Source: Bifidobacteriaceae bacterium
GTDB taxonomy: Bacteria; Actinomycetota; Actinomycetes; Actinomycetales; WQXJ01
Reading direction: 5' to 3'
Assembly: GCA_031281585.1 (NCBI GenBank)
Contig: JAITFE010000030.1
Location: 1 to 64,000 of the forward strand
DNA: 64,000 nt
In this document: positions 29,280 through 42,052 of the stretch, piece by piece
Layout of the letters: the number at the start of each line of letters is the position of its first letter
How positions within the stretch are numbered: position 1 is the stretch's first letter
Translations under genes and position numbers: made by a program
The notes under the pieces: generated by a model
Databases searched by the model: none
What the model was told of the DNA's origin: nothing
What the model saw: only the letters and a program-made list of their open reading frames with translations

Positions 29280-30530
29280 TGGTTCATGAACTAGACTGGC
29301 GGCGTGCAGGGCGCAGATGTGGCCGCTAGGGCTTGGACCGAGAGCCGAGGAATGGTTGATGGCCAACGGTATTTGGATGGTTTTCGCGTGACACGACCCG
29401 ATCTCAACCACTCGGGCGGGGCGGTTCAGGGCTTCGTCGCGGGGGTGTCTTTGCTGGCAGATGGGAGGCTCGTGATCCGTTGGTTGCCGATGATCTTTGC
29501 CTGTCTTGGCGTAGGCGGAGGGAAGGAGCTTGGTCCTTTGGGTGGCGGAGATTGCGGCCACGGCTGGAGAGGCCTCGGGGACGTGAGCTCTGGAGTGGCC
29601 ACTGCCGTAGACCAAGTGGTGTGCGCAGAGGTGTGTAGCGACGTCCAAGGCTCCGCCCCTCGAGGCGTTCGCTGGTGCCGAAGCGGTCGTGCGGGGGGAG
29701 CAGATGGTGATTCCTATCTCGATTGTGCCCTCGGCTTTGGTGGTGGTCATCCGGCGACCTTGGAGAATCTGGCAGCACCACGGGATGTCGGCCAGGTCTG
29801 GTGTGGCACCGGCTTACGCTATGCCGGTGGCGTTCGCAGAGTGGCTCGGCACCGTGGGACGGCGCGCACTGGTCTCCCACGACGGCGAACTCGCAAGCCC
29901 GTCCAACGGCAAAGGCAGGCCGCGGTTGACTCTCAGACCGTAGTGGGGACCGTAGTGCCCGATCGGCCGGACTGCACCGACCAATGTGCGTATTGTTTCC
30001 AATGGCGAGATGGCTCCATGCAAGTTGAACAAGGAGAGCAGTTCGCATGCAGTGGTCACTTCTTTGGTCTCCGTGCCAATCACTACTGGTTTGACGGCCA
30101 ATGCGGAGCCGCAGGTCAAACCACCGGCCAGGCACTGTGCGTCCTCAGTGTGGTTCTTCGCACCCCTGAGCGTCTTCCCTTTGAGACCCACGACCGCACG
30201 ACCGTCTGCCGATGTTCGCCCTACGGACGCCCATCCCCCGAACGGCGCAGACAGGACGCAGACGTTCGGGGTGCCGAACAACTCCAGGACTGCCAGCTTG
30301 AACAGGGCGCGACAGCCCGACCCCAAGCGCTCCCGGACTTGGGCTCCCGTGCAAGTCGCTCACTCCGTCATTGCCCCCAGGAGCTTGGCGCGCGCCGAAA
30401 CGTCGTCGATTATCAGGACCAACGCGGTGGACAATCCGGGGTTCACCGAGTGCTGAGGGGACAGGTACGCGATCGCGTCAAGAGCACGGACAAGATTCCG
30501 GGCGTGCAAGGATTTAGGATCGGCTTGGGG
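29280..30530 (-). mobile_element. ISAs1-family transposase relic
   Basis: The minus strand carries a decayed ISAs1 transposase. The block VGLKGKTLRGAKNHTED near 30155-30205 matches the family's AIDGKTLRGA core, followed by ETKEVTTACELLSLFNLHGA and, after frameshifts, a stretch like the family's ITSL..VRGHW C-terminal region down to about 29550. An in-frame TGA stands where the family has the W of AIGEW. Several frames are needed to follow it, so it is dead. It lies between the flippase and polymerase-like genes. Exact ends and inverted repeats were not identified. Confidence 0.6.
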
Positions 30531-32153: not shown

Positions 32154-33323
32154 TCAGGCGTTGCCGATTGCCTCGGCATACGTGGCGCGCATGATGCTGT
32201 CCACCACGGACTTGTCGAATCTTAGGGCAAGCGAGCGGTTGTGAACCTCGATTTCGGCTCGGTCATGCGCAGCACTATTGAGAATCGCTTTGATCCCCTT
32301 GGCTACCTGCTCGGGTTCAAGTGGATTCGGTACGAGATAGCCGCTCCTTCCGGCATCCATGTAGTCCTGAATGCCTCGCACGGCGGAGCCTACAAGCGGT
32401 AGTCCGGATGCCATGGCCTCCAGGCCGAAGACTCCGAGCCCCTCTCGAAGTGAGACGCTAATGGCAATGTCGGCAGCAGCAAGGTATGGGACAATATCCG
32501 ATTGAAAGCCTTGTAGATGTATCTGTCGAGCAATCCCGAGTTGACCTGCTAGCCCGAGAAGATGGCCGCGTTCAGAACCGGTGCCGCATATGGCATAGTG
32601 AAGGTTCTTCATACGAAGGAGGCTGACGGCTCGAATGACAGTGGCATGGTTTTTGTTGCCGTTGAGTTCACCTACGGACAGCAACAAGTGGTCATCTGAC
32701 CCAAGACCGAGGTCGCTCCGTACGGCCTCTGCGAACGTTGTCGGGGAGGGCGTTGAGAACCGAGAACAATCGACGCCCACACCAGGAATGCGCACCACCT
32801 TCGTCGCATGCATTTGGCGCCGAGCCAAGCTCTCGTCCTCTTCGTTTACGGTTAGAAGAACGTCCGTGAATCGGGAGAGGGATCTTTCTAAAGGGTAGTA
32901 GATAAGCCAGTTGCGTCTCGGGCCTCCCTTCATGAAATGGAAACCGTGCGCTGTATACAGGATTCGACGGACTCGCCCGCGCAGAGCGAAACGGGACAGG
33001 GCTGAAGCGGCGGGTTGGTGCGTGTGCAGAATGTCGAAACGCCTGGCGCGCTGGAGTTCCCGTAAGGATCGCACCACGTCGCGCGCGCCCTGCAGACTTC
33101 CTGCGCCGCGTTCAAAAGCGATGTGGTGGCAGGGCACGTTGATCGCGGCGAGTGCGGCTCGGAACTCGTCATAGGCCTCGCGGCTCATCTCGCCAGTCGA
33201 TTCGGTGTTAGTGGCGACCTCAACGTCGCAGCCGAGATCCTGGAGGATGGCTAGATTTCGCATGTTGAAGGACCTGATCATGGATGGTGTGGCCGCAACC
33301 ATGAGGATTCTGGGGCGAGTCAT
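32154..33323 (-). CDS. GT4-family glycosyltransferase (PglA/CapM-like)
   Basis: This 389-residue GT-B enzyme has the N-terminal start RPRILMVAATPSM, the acceptor loop YTAHGFHFMKGG near 125-137, and the donor motif SLREGLGVFGLEAMASGLP near 290-308 (EX7E). Relatives in bacillosamine loci add the second sugar to lipid-linked di-N-acetylbacillosamine or similar. ATG at 33323 overlaps the stop of the HAD gene (ATGA). The gene ends the minus-strand arm of the locus. Confidence 0.87.
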   Translation of the reverse strand: MTRPRILMVAATPSMIRSFNMRNLAILQDLGCDVEVATNTESTGEMSREAYDEFRAALAAINVPCHHIAFERGAGSLQGARDVVRSLRELQRARRFDILHTHQPAASALSRFALRGRVRRILYTAHGFHFMKGGPRRNWLIYYPLERSLSRFTDVLLTVNEEDESLARRQMHATKVVRIPGVGVDCSRFSTPSPTTFAEAVRSDLGLGSDDHLLLSVGELNGNKNHATVIRAVSLLRMKNLHYAICGTGSERGHLLGLAGQLGIARQIHLQGFQSDIVPYLAAADIAISVSLREGLGVFGLEAMASGLPLVGSAVRGIQDYMDAGRSGYLVPNPLEPEQVAKGIKAILNSAAHDRAEIEVHNRSLALRFDKSVVDSIMRATYAEAIGNA

Positions 33324-34093
33324 GCCGCGCTCGCCGTGCCGTTTGCGCCGGAACCCCAAGATGCAGAGGTTGATGTGCGCTGTCCGCCTAGCAACAACCG
33401 GGCGAGTTGGTGTACCGATGCCGCTTCTTTCAACCGCAACTGGGGAGGAGACTCGATTCGCTCATGGAGTTGGCCAGGGAAACGAACGCGGATGCAGTCC
33501 CAGCCACGGGCGATCGGAGCGTTGAAGTCCTTCGCTGGATTGTCGCCCACGTATACCAATCTTGCTGGATCAAGCTCGACGCTCTGCTCAACGAGTGCGA
33601 AGGCTCTAGGATGCGGCTTCCAATAGTCCGCTCCCCAAAGGTCAGTCAGAACCACTAGATCAGCATAGTGGCCTAGCTCCAAGGCTTTGGCTTTCGCGTG
33701 TTGGGAGGTCAGGGGCCCGTCGCTGATGATCGCTGTCTTGAGCCCTCGTCGCCGGAGGTTATGGATCATCTCGGCCATGCCCTCAATCATTTGCAGCCTG
33801 GGTGGGTGGCCACGGTATTGGGCAACCAGTTCCTCGACAGTCCAAGATCTGCCGATTTGTGGAAACCTCTTCAAGAGCGCGTCGAAATGGTCGAGTCGGA
33901 CGCCGCGCTGGAATCTACCCCACATGAATCGGTAGATCTCGTGGGAGGTGACACTGCTGGTCCTATCCAAGGGATTCAGCGAATCATTGCTGACCATGTC
34001 GGCGATGAACCGAAAACCGCTTGCGACGTAGTCGCGCTCCAAATAGAGGGTGTCGTCGAGGTCGAAGACCACGCCTAGCGGACTTAGGTCCAC
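33320..34093 (-). CDS. HAD-family hydrolase
   Basis: This 257-residue phosphatase has motif I DLDDTL (residues 11-16), motif II IISDG near 124, motif III KPHPRAF near 159 and motif IV VYVGDNPAKD near 179. It partners with ATP-grasp and glycosyltransferase genes in many polysaccharide loci, where its substrate is unknown. Here it overlaps the 3' end of the decayed ATP-grasp gene by ten bases and the GT4 start by four, so it was part of that operon. Confidence 0.85.
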   Translation of the reverse strand: MDLSPLGVVFDLDDTLYLERDYVASGFRFIADMVSNDSLNPLDRTSSVTSHEIYRFMWGRFQRGVRLDHFDALLKRFPQIGRSWTVEELVAQYRGHPPRLQMIEGMAEMIHNLRRRGLKTAIISDGPLTSQHAKAKALELGHYADLVVLTDLWGADYWKPHPRAFALVEQSVELDPARLVYVGDNPAKDFNAPIARGWDCIRVRFPGQLHERIESPPQLRLKEAASVHQLARLLLGGQRTSTSASWGSGANGTASAA

Positions 34094-35138
34094 AGCGGCC
34101 CCGCTGCAAAGTGCTCCACGTGGAAGCGGCTCATGTGCAGGCCGCGAACATAGGAGCCCAGTTCCACTTGGATCGGGCGACCTTCGAGATCGGCGACTAT
34201 CCAGTCCGTGTACCGGCCGCCGGCGGCATGGGAAAGGGGGTAGCCGCCGCCGAAGCGCGGATTCACCTCAGTAAGCACTGGACCAGTATCGGTTATGAAA
34301 GCCTGAAGAGTCACCGGACCGCGCCCGCCGCCCGCTGAGACGGCGTTTAAGTGCAAATTCCGGGTGTTTAAGACGTCGATGAGCCATGAGCGCAAGTCGT
34401 GGTCGTCAATGGTCACTCCTTGGATGGACTCTCCCGCCAGGGTTCGGATTCGGCGGCGGGGCACATAGTGCACCACTTTGCCGCCGGAAGAAATGAGGGC
34501 GTCCACAGTGATCTCCGGGCCTTTCAAACACTCTTGGATGACGGGCTGGGGCACAAGTGGGAGCAGACCCTTCACACCTTCCCGGTTCGTGTAGAACACG
34601 TGTCTGCTTGCACTCCCGTGGCGCGGCTTGATCACAATGTCGACGGTCGCGTTATTGAGCCGGGGTACGTCACGCTATTGAGCCGAACGCGCGTCACCGA
34701 TTTGAGCCACCTGCGATGCCGTTGACCTCCTCCTAAGCCTCCTGACTGCCGTGAACGGTGGTGGCTCAATAACGTGACACCGACCGGCTCAATTCACTGA
34801 GTGTCGACACACAAAATCCCCCCGGCGGCCCCCGCCAGGCTTGGCGAAAGCCCGGCCAGAATGAATAGCTCAGTGTCGATCGTGGGTGCCAGGACGTCGA
34901 TCCGGTAGCGTTCCACGCCAGCTAGCAACGCGTCCGCGTAGTCTGATGACGTCACCGGAGGCAACCTGAGGTGTCGGTCCGCGAATTGAAGTGATGGGGC
35001 TAGGCCGTCAACATCGGCGGCCACTACCTGGCCGCCTGAAGGCTGAACTGCCTCGGAGAAGGCCCTCACAAGGCCCACCCTCCGCCCGGCGCTAGTCAAG
35101 AGCACGTTAGTCAAGATGCGGACCGCGCCGGAACACAC
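34084..35138 (-). pseudogene. CarB-type ATP-grasp protein, disrupted
   Basis: The N-terminal part (35138-34794) reads TNVLLTSAGRRVGLVRAF to PTIDTELFILAGLSPSLAG. The C-terminal part (34635-34084) reads KPRHGSAS to EVNPRFGGGYPLSHAAGG, carrying the ATP-grasp metal-binding E and N residues. About 55-65 residues expected between them are missing. A 172-bp mobile element sits at the join, and even after removing it and one target repeat the two halves are in different frames. The gene therefore carries both a deletion and an insertion. The original enzyme probably ligated a group to a sugar or peptide. Confidence 0.8.
34638..34809. mobile_element. 172-bp non-autonomous IS21-like element (MITE) with 5-bp target duplication
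   Basis: Both ends begin TGTCGAC. Each then has 9 bases, ATTGAGCCGG, 5 bases, GTCACG, one base and TATTGAGCC, so the inverted ends match in sequence and spacing over about 47 bases. The repeated GTCACG-N-TATTGAGCC boxes are the arrangement seen at IS21-family ends in actinobacteria. CACAA occurs directly outside both ends (34633-34637 and 34810-34814), a 5-bp target duplication. There is no transposase gene inside. It interrupts the ATP-grasp gene. Confidence 0.85.
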
Positions 35139-35346
35139 TGAGGGCGACGACGGCTGGTTCTCGGAAATGCGCGTCTAGCAGATCGTTGGCTCGCTCGAAC
35201 ACCCGTGGAAGTATCCGGACGAGGGGCACCAGGTTGGTTTGAGGGTGCGGGGCGGCATCTGGACTGACGCGCGCGCGTGGCGACGGTCGAAGAAAACTCG
35301 ACGGCGGAAGCCTCTTGCAGTTCGATACACCAAGTATTGCATGGGA

Positions 35347-36021
35347 TCAGAAGCAGTCGATACTGCCGTGGGGGAGGGGGGCTTCCTTTGCCGGTACTCC
35401 CTTGACCATTGCTCCGGCGGGCACGTTTCTGGTCACACATGAGGCGGCGCCGACAGTCGCGTTGGCACCGACGGTCAGACCCTGGAGGATGACTGCGCCA
35501 GCGCCTAGTAGAGTGCCGTTCGCGACATGAACCTCCCCCGAGACTATTGACCCGGGGTTGGCGGACACGAAGTCTTCCAATACGGAATCGTGTCCTATCA
35601 CCACGCCAGGATTGACGTGGACAAAACGGCCCAGCCTGACGTTGGTCGACAGGTTCGCCCCCGCGCAGATGACGGTGCCAATTCCGATCTGGCTGCGGCT
35701 GCCAATCAAGGCGGAGGGATGGATCAGCGCTGGGGAGAACACCCTGCGGCCGACCTTTTGGGCGATTGCCGCCCGCGCACCTGGAGAGCCGACACCAATG
35801 ACCGCCTGGGTTTCGCTGTCCTCGCTCAGCCAGCGGTCAATTGGGCCGAGCCACGCTATGGCCCGGTCTGCTAGCCGTTCGAGCGCTTCTTCAGATGGCG
35901 CGTCATCGACCACCCCGACCACGGTGTGAACCGGTTTGGGTGTGGCGCGGTTGATCGCTTCGATCACGTCCAGAGTTTCGCGGCCAAAGCCGCCGGCGCC
36001 AATGATGACAAGTTCAGCCAT
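35347..36021 (-). CDS. PglD/NeuD-type sugar O/N-acetyltransferase
   Basis: This 224-residue enzyme has an N-terminal Rossmann-like UDP-sugar-binding domain (GAGGFGRETLDV, 8-19) and a left-handed beta-helix with hexapeptide repeats (about 100-205). The histidine in VVIGHDSVLEDF near 143 corresponds to the catalytic base of PglD. It would acetylate the C4 amino group of a UDP-4-amino-sugar made by the adjacent aminotransferase. It overlaps the sugar-transferase gene by eight bases. Confidence 0.88.
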   Translation of the reverse strand: MAELVIIGAGGFGRETLDVIEAINRATPKPVHTVVGVVDDAPSEEALERLADRAIAWLGPIDRWLSEDSETQAVIGVGSPGARAAIAQKVGRRVFSPALIHPSALIGSRSQIGIGTVICAGANLSTNVRLGRFVHVNPGVVIGHDSVLEDFVSANPGSIVSGEVHVANGTLLGAGAVILQGLTVGANATVGAASCVTRNVPAGAMVKGVPAKEAPLPHGSIDCF

Positions 36022-36640
36022 CGGTCGCCTCCGGCATGAACTCGGGCATGGTGGCGTGGCCGCGGGCGGCGATCCCGGCTCTGCGGAGAACCATCGCCAA
36101 TGTGCGGGCCAAGATCACAATGTCCATTTTCCATGAGCGGCCGTCTACGTAGCGGACGTCGAGGCGAAGGCGCTCGTCCCAAGATATGTCGTTGCGGCCG
36201 TTGACTTGGGCCAGCCCAGTCACGCCCGGACGCACCTCGTGGCGGCGGGCTTGGGTTGCCGTGTAGCGGTCTAGATATTCGACCAAGAGCGGTCGGGGGC
36301 CCACCATGCTCATGTCGCCGCGCAGCACGTTCCATAGGGTGGGCAGTTCGTCAAGGCTGGCGGCGCGGAGTGCCTGGCCGAGCGGAGTCAGACGGTCCTC
36401 GTCGTTGACCAGGCCGTTCGCCGGGTCTATCGGTTTCATTGTGCGGAACTTGCGCAGCCTGAAGACCTTGCCATTGCGACCTGGGCGCAATTGAGCGAAG
36501 ATCACCGGTTTGCCCAAGCGCGCGCGTACCACTGCAGCCACTGTGGCGATCACGGGGGAGAGGACCAGGAGGCCTGCTCCCGACGCCGCGATGTCGAAAG
36601 CCCGCTTGGAGATCTCATAGGTTCGCAGCTGGCGTTTCAC
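36014..36640 (-). CDS. Undecaprenyl-phosphate sugar-phosphate transferase (PglC-like)
   Basis: This 208-residue monotopic phosphoglycosyl transferase has one N-terminal hydrophobic helix (about 16-38) and the conserved core RPGRNGKVFRLRKFRTM, then SLDELPTLWNVLRGDMSMVGPRP near 98-120. It transfers a sugar phosphate from a UDP-sugar to undecaprenyl phosphate and so starts the repeat unit. Its short length is that of PglC rather than the larger WbaP type. GTG at 36640 overlaps the aminotransferase stop (GTGA). Confidence 0.9.
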   Translation of the reverse strand: MKRQLRTYEISKRAFDIAASGAGLLVLSPVIATVAAVVRARLGKPVIFAQLRPGRNGKVFRLRKFRTMKPIDPANGLVNDEDRLTPLGQALRAASLDELPTLWNVLRGDMSMVGPRPLLVEYLDRYTATQARRHEVRPGVTGLAQVNGRNDISWDERLRLDVRYVDGRSWKMDIVILARTLAMVLRRAGIAARGHATMPEFMPEATDG

Positions 36641-37782
36641 GCGGAGCGCTCCTGCCGGAAACGCTGGACCGCCGTCAGAACGCGGTCCCTCTGGGATTCG
36701 GTCAGGCAGGAGCCGCTCGGCAGGGCCAGGCCCGTCCGGAAAAGTCGCTCCGAAGCGCCGTTGATCCAGCTTCTGGCGTTGGCAAAGACCGGTTGCAGGT
36801 GCATGGGCTTCCACAGCGGGCGTGATTCGATTCCGGCCGCCGCCAGGACGTGGTTAAGGTCGTCCGAGGACCAGCCCGCAGTGGTTGGGTCGATCAGGAC
36901 GGCGCTCAACCAGGCGTTGTCCTCCGACTCGCCGGGTGGGCCGAACATGGTCACGCCTGGCAGACCGGCGAACGCCTGCCGGTAGCGTTCCCGCAGGTAG
37001 CGGCGTTTGGCCACCATCGAGTCGAGCCGCTTTAGCTGGGCGCGGCCCACGGCCGCCAACAGGTTGGACAGGCGGTAGTTGTAACCCACCTCATTGTGTT
37101 CGTACCACGGCACTGGCTCGCGGGCCTGGGTCGCTAGGTGGCGGACCCGGCGGGCAAGGGCCGCGTCGTCGGTCAGCAGGGCGCCGCCGCCCGACGTGGT
37201 CATGGCCTTGTTGCCGTTGAAGGACACCGCAGCGGCGCGTCCGTAGCCGGCGGCCGGACGGCCCGCCAGTTTGGAGCCCATGGCCTCCGCCGCGTCGGAG
37301 AACACCGGAACTCCGTAGCGGTCCGCTATGGCGTCGATCCGCTCGTGGTCCGCCACCTGCCCCAGCAAGTCCACGGGGATGACGGCCCAAACTTTGCGCC
37401 CCTCTGCGGTCAGTTGAGCCAGCGCCTGTTCGAGCAAGTCTGGGTTCATGTTGCCAGTGCCGTCTGAGTCCACGAACACCGGCTCCGCGCCCGTGTACAC
37501 CACTGCGTTGGCAGTCGCCGCGAAAGTCATCGAAGACGTCAACACGACCCCTCCGGGACCCGCGCCAAGAGCCAACAGGCCAAGGTGGAGGGCCGCCGTG
37601 CCGGACGACAGCGCCACGCACTCGCTCCGGCCGCAGTAGGCCGCCAACTCGGATTCGAAGGCGTCCACCTGGGGACCCAACGGCGCGATCCAACCGGACC
37701 GGACGGCGGCCAGCAGGTATTCCTCCTCCAAGGGGCCCACGTCGGGGAGCGAGAGGCCAATGGTTGGCGGGAGAGTGGACAC
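36637..37782 (-). CDS. DegT/DnrJ-family PLP aminotransferase (PglE-like)
   Basis: This 381-residue aminotransferase has the PLP lysine K192 in SFNGNKAMTTSGGG and the conserved ALSSGTAALHL near 57-67 and DAAEAMGS near 168. It should convert a UDP-4-keto-6-deoxy-hexosamine to the 4-amino sugar with glutamate as donor. The SFNGNK motif is characteristic of the PglE/LegC branch. The GTG start at 37782 is five bases from the dehydratase stop. Neighbours supply its substrate and acetylate its product. Confidence 0.9.
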   Translation of the reverse strand: MSTLPPTIGLSLPDVGPLEEEYLLAAVRSGWIAPLGPQVDAFESELAAYCGRSECVALSSGTAALHLGLLALGAGPGGVVLTSSMTFAATANAVVYTGAEPVFVDSDGTGNMNPDLLEQALAQLTAEGRKVWAVIPVDLLGQVADHERIDAIADRYGVPVFSDAAEAMGSKLAGRPAAGYGRAAAVSFNGNKAMTTSGGGALLTDDAALARRVRHLATQAREPVPWYEHNEVGYNYRLSNLLAAVGRAQLKRLDSMVAKRRYLRERYRQAFAGLPGVTMFGPPGESEDNAWLSAVLIDPTTAGWSSDDLNHVLAAAGIESRPLWKPMHLQPVFANARSWINGASERLFRTGLALPSGSCLTESQRDRVLTAVQRFRQERSA

Positions 37783-37787
37783 GGCTT

Positions 37788-39683
37788 CTATTCTGCTGCC
37801 CGCTTGGCGGTAACGGGTTGATCGGCATCCGGCTCGGTCTCGCCTTGGGCTGACGGGCCGAATTCGGCGGTTGCGCGGCCGGAGTGGGGAGCGGCGGGTG
37901 ACCGGACGGCATCGGGCAATGGGGGAGCCACCGCCGCCATGTCCGGAACGAAGGGGTGCTCCGTGGCCTCCTCGGGGCTGAGCGGCTCCACGCGAACCCG
38001 GCGGATCAGGGGATGCGGCCCCGGCTCGCCCTCTTCGCCCGCGGAGAACAGCACCTCGTGGAGCTTCTCGCCCGGCCTGAGGCCGGTGAACTTGACGGCG
38101 ATGTCGCGGCCCGACTCGGCGATCAGGTAATTCGCCACGTCCAGAATGCGGACCGGGTCGCCCATGTCGAGGACCAGCGTGTCGCCCGACTCGCCGCCGG
38201 CGCCGGCCTGGAGCACCAGTTCGCAGGCCTCCGGGATGGTCATGAAGAAGCGCGTCACGTTCGGATGGGTGACCGTCACCGGGCCGCCATGGTTGATCTG
38301 GAAGCGGAAAGTGTCCAGCACGGAGCCCCTCGAACCGAGCACGTTGCCGAACCGCACCGACACGTACGGGAGGCCCAGGCGCTTGGCGTGCCAGGCCGTC
38401 AGCCGCTCGGCCGTGCGCTTGGTCACGCCCAGGACGCTGGTTGGATCGGCGGCCTTGTCGGTCGAGATGTTGACGAACCTGTGCACGCCGCTCTCCGCAG
38501 CGCATTTGAGCACATTGGCGGTGCCGATCACGTTGGTCTTCCAGCCCTCCTCGGGGAAGCGCTCCAAGATGGGGAGGTGTTTGAGCGCGGCCGCGTGGAA
38601 GACCACCTCGGGGCGCTCGCGCTGGAACACCGCCGTGAGCGCGTCGACCTCGCGGATGTCGCACAGCACCGTGTCGCTTGTCTGCAGGAGGCCCGAACCG
38701 GAAACCGACAGGTGGACCGCGTGGAGGGCGGATTCGTCGCGGTCCAAGAGCACAACGCGGGCCGGGGCCAGGCGGTGGACTTGACGCGCCAACTCGGAGC
38801 CGATCGACCCGCCCGCGCCGGTTATCAGCACCACTCGGCCGTTGATGTAGCCGGCTATGGCCTCCAGATTGGTCGTGATTGGGCGGCGGCCCAAGAGATC
38901 CCGCACGTCCAAGTCGCGCAGCTGGTCCAGGCGGACTTTCCCGCCGATCAACTCGTGCAGCGGCGGCACCACCGAGAAGCCCAGGCCGACAGCTTTGCAT
39001 TCCGCGGAAACCCTCTTGAGCAGCGTCGGGGACGCGTCCGAGATGGCCACTACCACCATCTCCGCGCCCATCCGACGGGCCAGGTCCATCAGGTCTGCCC
39101 CGGTTCCCAGCACGCGGCGGGACTCGATTTGCCGGTGCCGTTTGCGCGGGTCGTCGTCAACGAAGCCGACAATCCCGTACGGCGAGTCGGCGGTCAACGC
39201 AATTTGGCGGGCGATCTGCTGGCCTATTTCGCCGGCGCCGTAAATGAGGGTCGGCTTGGCCTGCGTTGGTCTTGGCTGGCGCTTGACCGAGTCCGTGTAG
39301 CTCCGCCAGGCGTAACGGCCCGCGAACATCAGGATGAGCGCCAGTGCGGGCAGGGCCAGAGGAATGCCGTTCGGCGGGGGCAGCGGAGTCAATTCGGCCA
39401 CTCCGAAGGCCACTATCCCGATTGCGACCACCGTGGCACCCAGCAGGGACACGTCCAGGAAGCTACCGATCCGGGTCCTGCCCAGGTAGATCCTCGTGAT
39501 CAGACCGCCCGTGATCTGGAGGACTGCGGCCAGGGCCAGGTAAAGGGCGGTCCCCTTCCAGAGGCTTGGAACCATGGAGAAGTCGTAGCGAATCAGGACG
39601 AACCACAGCAGCGCCACGAGCCAGCAGAACACATCCCATGCCGCCAGGCCGACAAGTCGGTGGCGTTGCAACAATCGCCGCAT
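37788..39683 (-). CDS. Membrane UDP-HexNAc 4,6-dehydratase (PglF/WbpM-like)
   Basis: This 631-residue protein has four N-terminal membrane helices (about 10-115), a first Rossmann domain (IYGAGEIGQQ near 147) and a second, catalytic SDR domain with TGAGGSIGSEL near 288 and NISTDKAADPTSVLG near 403. WbpM/PglF enzymes use this altered active site to remove water from UDP-GlcNAc, giving the 4-keto-6-deoxy sugar. The C-terminal 60 residues are variable. ATG at 39683 is preceded by AGGAGG; upstream in-frame codons lack a site. It is first in the minus-strand dehydratase-aminotransferase-transferase-acetyltransferase operon. Confidence 0.92.
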   Translation of the reverse strand: MRRLLQRHRLVGLAAWDVFCWLVALLWFVLIRYDFSMVPSLWKGTALYLALAAVLQITGGLITRIYLGRTRIGSFLDVSLLGATVVAIGIVAFGVAELTPLPPPNGIPLALPALALILMFAGRYAWRSYTDSVKRQPRPTQAKPTLIYGAGEIGQQIARQIALTADSPYGIVGFVDDDPRKRHRQIESRRVLGTGADLMDLARRMGAEMVVVAISDASPTLLKRVSAECKAVGLGFSVVPPLHELIGGKVRLDQLRDLDVRDLLGRRPITTNLEAIAGYINGRVVLITGAGGSIGSELARQVHRLAPARVVLLDRDESALHAVHLSVSGSGLLQTSDTVLCDIREVDALTAVFQRERPEVVFHAAALKHLPILERFPEEGWKTNVIGTANVLKCAAESGVHRFVNISTDKAADPTSVLGVTKRTAERLTAWHAKRLGLPYVSVRFGNVLGSRGSVLDTFRFQINHGGPVTVTHPNVTRFFMTIPEACELVLQAGAGGESGDTLVLDMGDPVRILDVANYLIAESGRDIAVKFTGLRPGEKLHEVLFSAGEEGEPGPHPLIRRVRVEPLSPEEATEHPFVPDMAAVAPPLPDAVRSPAAPHSGRATAEFGPSAQGETEPDADQPVTAKRAAE

Positions 39684-39841
39684 TGAGACCTCCTGGGGTT
39701 CTGAAGTCGGGGACCACCAAATCTCGCCGTCGGCCGCGACAAGGGGTATGCCGCGTTTGGTGTCTTCTTGCGTTCCGTGGTCCACTATATGCCCCAACCC
39801 GGGTGTAAAGGCCTTCCCCCTCCGGAACCGCAAGAAGGCGG

Positions 39842-42052
39842 TCAGCGAGCCAGCGCGCCCTGAACCGCCGCTGACAGTTGCGGGGCAAGGGTTTCGACGA
39901 AAGTGGCCGACAGATGATCGTCATCAAAATACGCTACGACAGAGCCCACGATGCCTCGGCAGACTTCGCGGCCGCAGATCGCATCGGTGAAGTCGAGGAC
40001 CTCGACCAAGTCCGGCCCAAAGGCCGCTGCCGCATCGACCCAAGGATCCGGGGAAAGCCAATCCTCTCTTGGCCCGCTGCAGCGGTCAATGCGGTCGGCG
40101 TTCAGGGCGAGGCAGTCCGGAATGCTTCGTTCCGCAGGTTCGCGAGGATTGTCCCTAATCACGATCACCTTCATCTCTGCCTCCGTTAGCTGCTGAAGGA
40201 CCCAGCTTGCGGATTCGACGGCCAAATCGTACTTGTCAGGGGGTGCCTCGACTCTATTCGACAAGACCACAAGGTCCGGTTCATGGGCGCGGATAGCGTC
40301 GAGTTCCTCCTCGGTGACATCAACGCACTCATCGCGGAAAGTCAATGCGTCGAACTTGCCTCCTGGCGCTCTTGGAAAGCACGCCGAAGACAACCAAGTC
40401 GTGATTCCCAAGTCCAGGTCACGTGCGGAACGTTGCAGGCCAGGCAGCCACTGCACTGCATGTGAATTGCCCCAGAGGACGACTTCCCATTTCGCCGATT
40501 CCTCTGGCAGGGCGTACCGACATCGGTGCGGCGACGGGTCGTCCCAGTGTCGGGTGCAACCATCACCAAAGGCTGTCGGTTGGTCAAGCGACCCGAATCT
40601 GGGGTCGGGATAGGGCCCCGCCTCGTCAGCTGTACCGGTCACGGCGCAGGTCGGGTCCAGGATGCGTTGGGCACCCAAACACTGGCTTTGGCGGACGTGT
40701 TCCCTCGCGGACGCGACCTCGGACATGCCCGTGCTCTCTACGCCGACGTAAACACCGCTACCAACCAGGCCGAGCACGGCCATGCTGGCGACGGCAGGCA
40801 CAAAGGTGCGCTTTGGGCGGCTCCTTATCCAGCGCCAACGCTGAAATGGCTGCTCCACAAACGCGTAGGAGACCGCCGAGAGCCCAAGGGTGGCCAGGAT
40901 GACTAGGGCGCTGGTGCCAAGGGAGAGTTCGCTCCCCAGGACGTAGGGCGCGAGCAGCATCAGGGGCCAGTGCCACAGATAGACTGAGTAGGACATGTCG
41001 CCCAGGTATTGGATTGGTCGGAGTGACCAGAAGTGCTTCAAGAAGCGGTCGATGCCATTTGGATCGATGTCAGGCTTTACCTGGAGGCTTGATACATGCT
41101 CTCCCAACTTGTCATTGCCCAACTCGGGGGCCTTCGCGCGCGGGCGGAGGTCTGTCGGGGCGCGTCCGCCAACTATGAACAGGGCTGCACCCGCAGTCGG
41201 CAGCAACGCGACCCAGCCGGGAAAGGGCGTGGCGTCGGAGAACCACACGGCGGCGGCAATCATGGCGACGAGCCCCACGGCGACGGCACCTGCGCGCATC
41301 GTCGGGTGCGGGGCTAGTCGGTCCTCAAGGCGTGGCCAGAAGCAGGCCAACAAGCCGCCCAGCGCAAGTTCCCAAACGCGGGTCTGCGTGACCAAATAGG
41401 CCTCGGCCGGGTTCCGAATGGTCATCCACACCGACAGCGCAAAGGAAACGCCCGCCGCCGCGCCGACCACCAAGGTGATAGGCAGCCGCACAGAGGCCGT
41501 GTCGCCCCCGTGGTCCTTGCGGTGCCACAAGACAACCACGGCCAGCATCAGAACTGGCCAGAACACGTAGAACTGTTCTTCCACGCTGAGCGACCAGAAG
41601 TGCTGGAAAATCGACGGCACCCCGCCGCGGGCCAGGTAGTCCGTCGACTTGTGCCACAGATTCCAGTTCTCCACGTACACGGCGGCGGCCACGGCGTCGC
41701 GGGCGGTCTGCACCCAGGCCGACGGCGGCCCGACCAACCACGCCGCCACGCCTGTGGCGACTATGACCAGGAAAGACGCCGGCAACAGCCGTCTGATTCG
41801 CCGGCCCCAGAAGTCGGCCACGTCATGCCAAGTCTTGGGCGGCCGCGTCACCAATCCGCCCGTGATCAAGAAGCCGGAGATCACAAAGAAGATGTCCACG
41901 CCGACGTACCCGCCGGTCAGGACACCAGGCCAGAGGTGGTACACCACGACCAAGGACACGGCCAACGCCCTGAGCCACTGAATATCCGCCCGGCGCCCCG
42001 AAGCTTTCGCTCCCGAGGCTTTGGCGGTGTGTTGGGTGGCCAGGGCGTGCAC
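39842..42052 (-). CDS. Acyltransferase-3 / SGNH fusion, copy 1
   Basis: This 736-residue OafA/YrhL-type protein has about ten membrane helices with the acyltransferase-3 motif VVYHLWPGVLTGGYVGVDIF near 36-55, followed after one more helix by an extracytosolic SGNH domain (about 500-736). SGNH blocks are LWGNSHAVQWL near 525 and YFDDDHLS near 712. Such proteins O-acetylate surface glycans using an acyl group passed across the membrane. It is a tandem paralogue of the gene upstream at 44553. The GTG start at 42052 aligns with the ATG of that copy. Confidence 0.88.
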   Translation of the reverse strand: MHALATQHTAKASGAKASGRRADIQWLRALAVSLVVVYHLWPGVLTGGYVGVDIFFVISGFLITGGLVTRPPKTWHDVADFWGRRIRRLLPASFLVIVATGVAAWLVGPPSAWVQTARDAVAAAVYVENWNLWHKSTDYLARGGVPSIFQHFWSLSVEEQFYVFWPVLMLAVVVLWHRKDHGGDTASVRLPITLVVGAAAGVSFALSVWMTIRNPAEAYLVTQTRVWELALGGLLACFWPRLEDRLAPHPTMRAGAVAVGLVAMIAAAVWFSDATPFPGWVALLPTAGAALFIVGGRAPTDLRPRAKAPELGNDKLGEHVSSLQVKPDIDPNGIDRFLKHFWSLRPIQYLGDMSYSVYLWHWPLMLLAPYVLGSELSLGTSALVILATLGLSAVSYAFVEQPFQRWRWIRSRPKRTFVPAVASMAVLGLVGSGVYVGVESTGMSEVASAREHVRQSQCLGAQRILDPTCAVTGTADEAGPYPDPRFGSLDQPTAFGDGCTRHWDDPSPHRCRYALPEESAKWEVVLWGNSHAVQWLPGLQRSARDLDLGITTWLSSACFPRAPGGKFDALTFRDECVDVTEEELDAIRAHEPDLVVLSNRVEAPPDKYDLAVESASWVLQQLTEAEMKVIVIRDNPREPAERSIPDCLALNADRIDRCSGPREDWLSPDPWVDAAAAFGPDLVEVLDFTDAICGREVCRGIVGSVVAYFDDDHLSATFVETLAPQLSAAVQGALAR

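Follow-up and report, generated by a model that had tools for sequence, protein, structure and literature searches.

A multi-copy 172-bp unit in a Bifidobacteriaceae genome, probably a miniature element of the IS21 family

The window, a stretch of 64,000 nucleotides on contig C30 of a Bifidobacteriaceae genome (G000; 169 contigs, 95% complete), carries a 172-bp unit which, judging by its sequence, is very probably a miniature, non-autonomous element (MITE) of the IS21 family. Its mobilisation by IstA and IstB, and its descent from a type of IS21 element that carries a DUF6431 gene, I infer. The evidence comes from the architecture of the unit and its copies, from the insertion site of one of these copies, and from the IS21 elements of related genomes.

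Architecture and copies of the unit

Direct reading of the window bears out a preliminary description of this DNA, in that a unit of exactly 172 bp opens with TGTCGAC (from 34638 on), closes with GTCGACA (up to 34809) and is flanked by CACAA on each side (Table 1). Its 47-nt inverted arms are 72% complementary. GAGCC boxes have their last nucleotide at 24, 47 and 71 from the left tip and at 24 and 47 from the right tip, the box ends reading TTGAGCC on both sides; the internal boxes are thus equally spaced from both ends, as had been proposed, at 24 and 47 nt. Likewise, the interior of 54 nt offers no space for a transposase gene, which had also been pointed out. Neither istA nor istB is present in the 172 bp, as expected of a MITE, and the unit is therefore not itself an IS21 element. 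Short, devoid of a transposase gene and with inverted ends, it has the properties of a MITE, and to these it adds those of an IS21 derivative, namely TG...CA tips with two or more direct repeats at each end, although the right tip ends with CA in the window copy and with CG in the C87 and C19 copies.

Five matches were obtained when the genome was searched with the unit plus its flanking sequence, so that the further copies, for which the preliminary description had advised a search, do exist: two complete, one decayed and one reduced to a solo end. The three complete copies (window, C87 and C19) each measure exactly 172 bp, with full-length pairwise identities of 159, 156 and 151 of 172. Because the two further copies match almost from end to end (E = 4e-67 and 1e-64), the unit is not a chance sequence, and the copies lie at unrelated sites, as those of a bacterial MITE do. 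Among the three copies, variable columns numbered 14/118 in the boxes and 11/54 in the interior, a difference that is not significant (p = 0.16). A solo end with two boxes also occurs at C67:97896; its tip, TGTGGACGGTCATGTTGTTGAGCC, is identical to the window tip at 20/24 positions, and no partner end was seen for it.

Table 1. Features of the window site and copies of the unit elsewhere in the genome
Feature	Position	Strand	Basis or identity
Downstream part of broken ATP-grasp gene (ATPgrasp_Ter / ATP-grasp_3)	34084..34635	-	domain match
Left flanking CACAA, candidate 5-bp target duplication	34633..34637		direct reading
Complete 172-bp miniature element	34638..34809	+	three genome copies, each exactly 172 bp
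Left tip box L1, 24 nt, TGTCGAC...TTGAGCC	34638..34661	+	22/24 nt identical to tip of G005 arrays
Left box L2, 23 nt	34662..34684	+	box mapping
Left box L3, 24 nt, more degenerate	34685..34708	+	box mapping
54-nt interior without transposase gene	34709..34762		direct reading
Right box R2, 23 nt	34763..34785	-	box mapping
Right tip box R1, 24 nt	34786..34809	-	direct reading and box mapping
Upstream part of broken ATP-grasp gene (PylC-like N-terminal domain)	34794..35138	-	domain match; frame continues into element
Right flanking CACAA	34810..34814		direct reading
C87 copy	C87:46312-46479		about 92-93% identity to window unit
C19 copy	C19:1968-2138		91% identity to window unit
Decayed copy	C110:7030-7176		71% identity
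Solo left end, 37 nt	C109:24973-25009		genome search

Insertion sites and target duplications

The C87 copy shows directly, through a pair of GGTGG repeats and a restored host frame, that it is the 172-bp unit that inserts and that 5 bp are duplicated in the process. The left tip of this copy appeared at first to be missing, the neighbouring sequence opening with GTGCG; beside it lie a group II intron domain (RF00029) and a reverse transcriptase ORF (PF00078). A tip split by an intron should resume past it with ACA followed by CCACC, the complement of the right flank. In the 4.7-kb stretch ACACCACC was located once, at C87:43895 (two shorter variants in the search string matched elsewhere), and the RF00029 match ends exactly at this place, on the 3' side of the intron. 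The group II intron splits the copy 3 nt inside its left tip, as an insert of 2417 bp (C87:43895-46311); without the insert the copy measures 172 bp, with an exact 5-bp GGTGG on either side. When the flanks are joined, an open tyrosine-recombinase frame is restored, reading ...GDLMLATGCRTGEVLAIRWEDVD, and inclusion of the junction lifts the Phage_integrase score from 26.3 to 35.6 bits. Both a target duplication and an empty site, as looked for in a MITE, are thus found at C87. The C19 copy is flanked by CCGCTTCG and CCCCTTCG, which can be read as 8 bp with one mismatch or, alternatively, as CTTCG plus three extra C; a clean 5-bp duplication is missing there.

In the window the unit sits in an ATP-grasp gene of a glycan operon, a location already given in the preliminary description and confirmed by domain matches and neighbouring genes. 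The upstream part of the gene matches PylC-like_N and the downstream part ATP-grasp domains, the element splitting the gene between them. The downstream part is 60% identical, over 182 aligned positions, to an intact orthologue of 326 aa in the related genome G012, where a similar HAD-like gene follows. Compared with this orthologue, the window gene is without ~46 codons exactly at the element; the number falls to ~35 if its upstream TTGTG is the counterpart of a native TTGTG in G012 (gene position 341, 0-based, ~110 bp ahead of the I/V-K-P site). Once joined, the two flanks do not share a reading frame. On account of the missing codons and of the out-of-frame join, the CACAA pair is only a candidate target duplication: it may be a true duplication with a deletion next to it, made either before or after the insertion, or else a pair of native positions that adjoin a deletion.

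The second of these readings, in which the unit is a MITE all the same and the CACAA pair reflects native positions (or chance) next to an adjacent deletion, is distinctly possible, if the less probable of the two. It accommodates the ~35-46 lost codons and the broken frame, it finds a native TTGTG in G012, and it has a precedent in the one-sided deletions that ISPve1, an IS21 element, is reported to leave at its insertion site (PMC3281130). On the other hand, two random ends would be bordered by a perfect direct repeat of 5-9 bp with a probability of ~0.0012, and CACAA has the same length as the C87 duplication, so that a true duplication at the window is favoured, CACAA remaining a candidate; the window is also accounted for if a true duplication came first and a microhomology-mediated deletion afterwards, or if the unit entered a gene that already had the deletion. 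As for the exact 5-bp target duplication that had been claimed here, CACAA is indeed present on both sides, whereas its origin by duplication is not established, with ~35-46 host codons missing. The comparison with an empty site, which had been suggested as a check, is likewise divided, for the join at C87 restores a frame while that at the window, set against G012, does not.

The glycan operon (window 32154-42052) encodes a GT4 glycosyltransferase, a HAD protein, the broken ATP-grasp protein, a PglD-like acetyltransferase, a sugar transferase, a DegT aminotransferase, a Polysacc_synt_2 dehydratase and an acyltransferase with an SGNH domain, a gene set that I take to resemble the bacillosamine pathway. 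In another part of the window, the minus strand of 29404-30326 resembles, by eye, remnants of an ISAs1-type transposase; a Pfam scan of the ORF at 29817-30326 gave no match.

Relationship to IS21 elements and distribution

The assignment to IS21 rests on the register of the ends, on a tip found in the related genome G005 and on a chain of DUF6431 proteins, rather than on an intact partner. The interpretation in the preliminary description was upheld in part. IS21-type ends are supported, the same box register recurring in istA/istB elements of relatives; the second search that had been advised, for an intact IS21 element with the same ends, found none in G000, in relatives or in the other collections searched.

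With the IstA-like protein of C147 as query, matches were obtained in 6/18 genomes of the family, and none in G005. The elements of G009 and G016 possess both istA and istB, an array of boxes lying at each end and the two arrays being inverted relative to each other, and their IstA passes the NCBIfam IS21 model (NF033546; in G016 with 249.7 bits, above the cut-off), while IstB of G016 attains 187.5 bits with NF038214, below the cut-off of 200; the G016 IstA also matches the solved IS5376 transposase. The GAGCC boxes end at 24, 47, 70 and 91 in the istB-side array of G016, at 24, 47, 70 and 93 in the G012 array (counted from its TG), and at 24, 46 and 68 on the istA side of G009 (counted from TGGATAC), a register of 24 + ~23n that the unit has in common with IS21 elements from its genus and family. 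The tips of proven IS21 ends are identical to the window tip at 11-14/24 positions, much of this being the GAGCC end. The closest tip, with 22/24 identical nucleotides, is that of three arrays in G005, whose boxes end at 24, 47, 70, 93 and 117. In one of them, on G005:C446, a DUF6431-like ORF comes next to the boxes, downstream of the array; it is 53% identical over ~131 aa to the ORF between the box array and istA in G012, and a Pfam scan of it gave no hit at E 0.001. Arrays in G005, G006 and G012 comprise four to seven GAGCC boxes, against two and three in the unit. The array at G006:C78:1-172 has a TGTGGAC tip and seven repeats spaced by 23 bp, and runs into the contig end. DUF6431-like zinc-ribbon/HTH genes adjoin transposases of two types, in an IS21 element (G012:C178) and in a DDE/Mu-C + AAA ATPase cluster (G000:C95).

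It is conceivable, albeit rather unlikely, that a lineage of IS21 elements in uncultured actinobacteria (Bifidobacteriaceae-labelled MAGs) carries a zinc-ribbon/HTH protein of the DUF6431 type immediately internal to a long tandem array of end boxes, and that the unit belongs to this lineage; DUF6431 would recognise the array and either aid or repress the transposase, and the unit would persist with a minimum of boxes.

Elements of the Tn7/Tn5053-like group (TniA/TniB) likewise begin with TGT, bind their transposase at several boxes per end and duplicate 5 bp of target. A derivation of the unit from such an element is improbable, even though its 5-bp duplication and multi-box ends are compatible with that group and the genome itself holds a cluster of DUF6431, DDE/Mu-C and AAA ATPase genes at C95. 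Around this cluster there are no TTGAGCC boxes save for one isolated intragenic site, and the adjacent repeats read TTTGACGGTG by eye, which differ from those of the unit; boxes in the register of the unit are found instead in IS21 elements from its genus and family. That the unit is a structured repeat with a regulatory or RNA role, as its strong hairpin potential might suggest (folded as RNA, z = -5.4 against 200 shuffles, as expected from its inverted ends), is the least credible reading, in view of the precise 172-bp borders, the C87 site with its clean 5-bp duplication and repaired host frame, tips that match transposon arrays, and a promoter scan that found no promoter-like site.

As partners of the putative IS21-derived unit, the istA/istB loci of C147 and C101 were rejected for their different boxes and the C95 cluster for its different repeats. 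The C101 locus is a second IS21-type istA/istB pair, with TGGCCAC-type repeats (by eye) upstream of istA.

A pattern for miniature elements with paired GAGCC boxes was matched in 3/18 genomes of the family, at five places: twice in the window, once in C87, and at two istB ends of full IS21 elements. DNA similar to the unit occurs in 3/18 genomes of the family and in 3/297 of the order, each time G000 itself plus two further genomes of its genus. In the phylum, 1/396 genomes, again G000, has the two-box pattern, and a search of public genome contigs returned three contigs, all from one MAG. Plasmid, phage and viral contig collections yielded no match to the unit. As the matches come from the same genus only, the element type looks confined to it within the collections searched.

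Probable mechanism and comparison with known elements

The unit would be what remains of an IS21 element after the loss of istA and istB, with the transposase-binding ends retained as three left and two right boxes. The boxes, spaced by 23 bp, would be bound by an IstA that another element provides; this IstA would pair both tips, and together with IstB it would insert the unit, giving rise to the 5-bp duplication. Given the three and two repeats kept and the 5-bp duplication seen, trans-mobilisation by IstA and IstB appears to be the most likely mechanism. Along the same line, the work on IS5376 states that IstA requires two complete repeats per end, that IstB is required, and that 5-bp repeats occur at all sequenced insertions (PMC10122671); the right end of the unit keeps exactly this minimum of two. 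The duplication length varies within the family, an 8-bp duplication being reported for ISPve1 (PMC3281130); that the G016 element made a 6-bp and not a 5-bp duplication counts against the IS21 reading. The unit offers a natural 172-bp substrate, with two and three boxes, on which the minimal end requirement of the IS5376 IstA can be tested in an evolved element, and the arrays of its relatives show how variable the number of boxes is.

The IS21 elements of the related genomes (G009:C30, G016:C61, G012:C178) and of the own genome (G000:C147) share with the unit end arrays of GAGCC boxes in the same register. They differ in carrying istA, together with istB in G009 and G016, those of G012 and C147 being degenerate; in 6-bp flanking repeats, which by reading are exact in G016 (GTCCGC) and have one mismatch in G009; and in their less similar tips. 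The arrays of G005 (Bifidobacteriaceae bacterium Cd354_bin95, a JAIROU MAG) have the near-identical tip, but comprise five boxes and, in C446, the DUF6431-like ORF; all three arrays are located at contig ends or close to them, the rest of the element being cut off there or interrupted.

In the openly licensed literature searched, MITEs are assigned to several other IS families, and no IS21-derived MITE was found. Like the unit, MITEPsy1, MITEPsy2 and MITEPye1 are described as short, without a transposase and with the inverted ends of a parent IS, and direct repeats are reported for MITEPsy1 and MITEPye1; their parents are ISPsy2 (IS5 family), ISPsy30 (Tn3 family) and IS1182-family elements, none of them IS21 (PMC3189936, PMC11578231). 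With elements of the IS5376 type (IstA/IstB; PDB 8b4h, 8q4d; PMC10122671), the unit has in common the terminal CA (TG...CA), at least two direct repeats per end and a 5-bp duplication, a comparison of architecture and not of box sequence; it departs from them in its length of 172 bp, in the loss of istA and istB, and in its three left and two right boxes.
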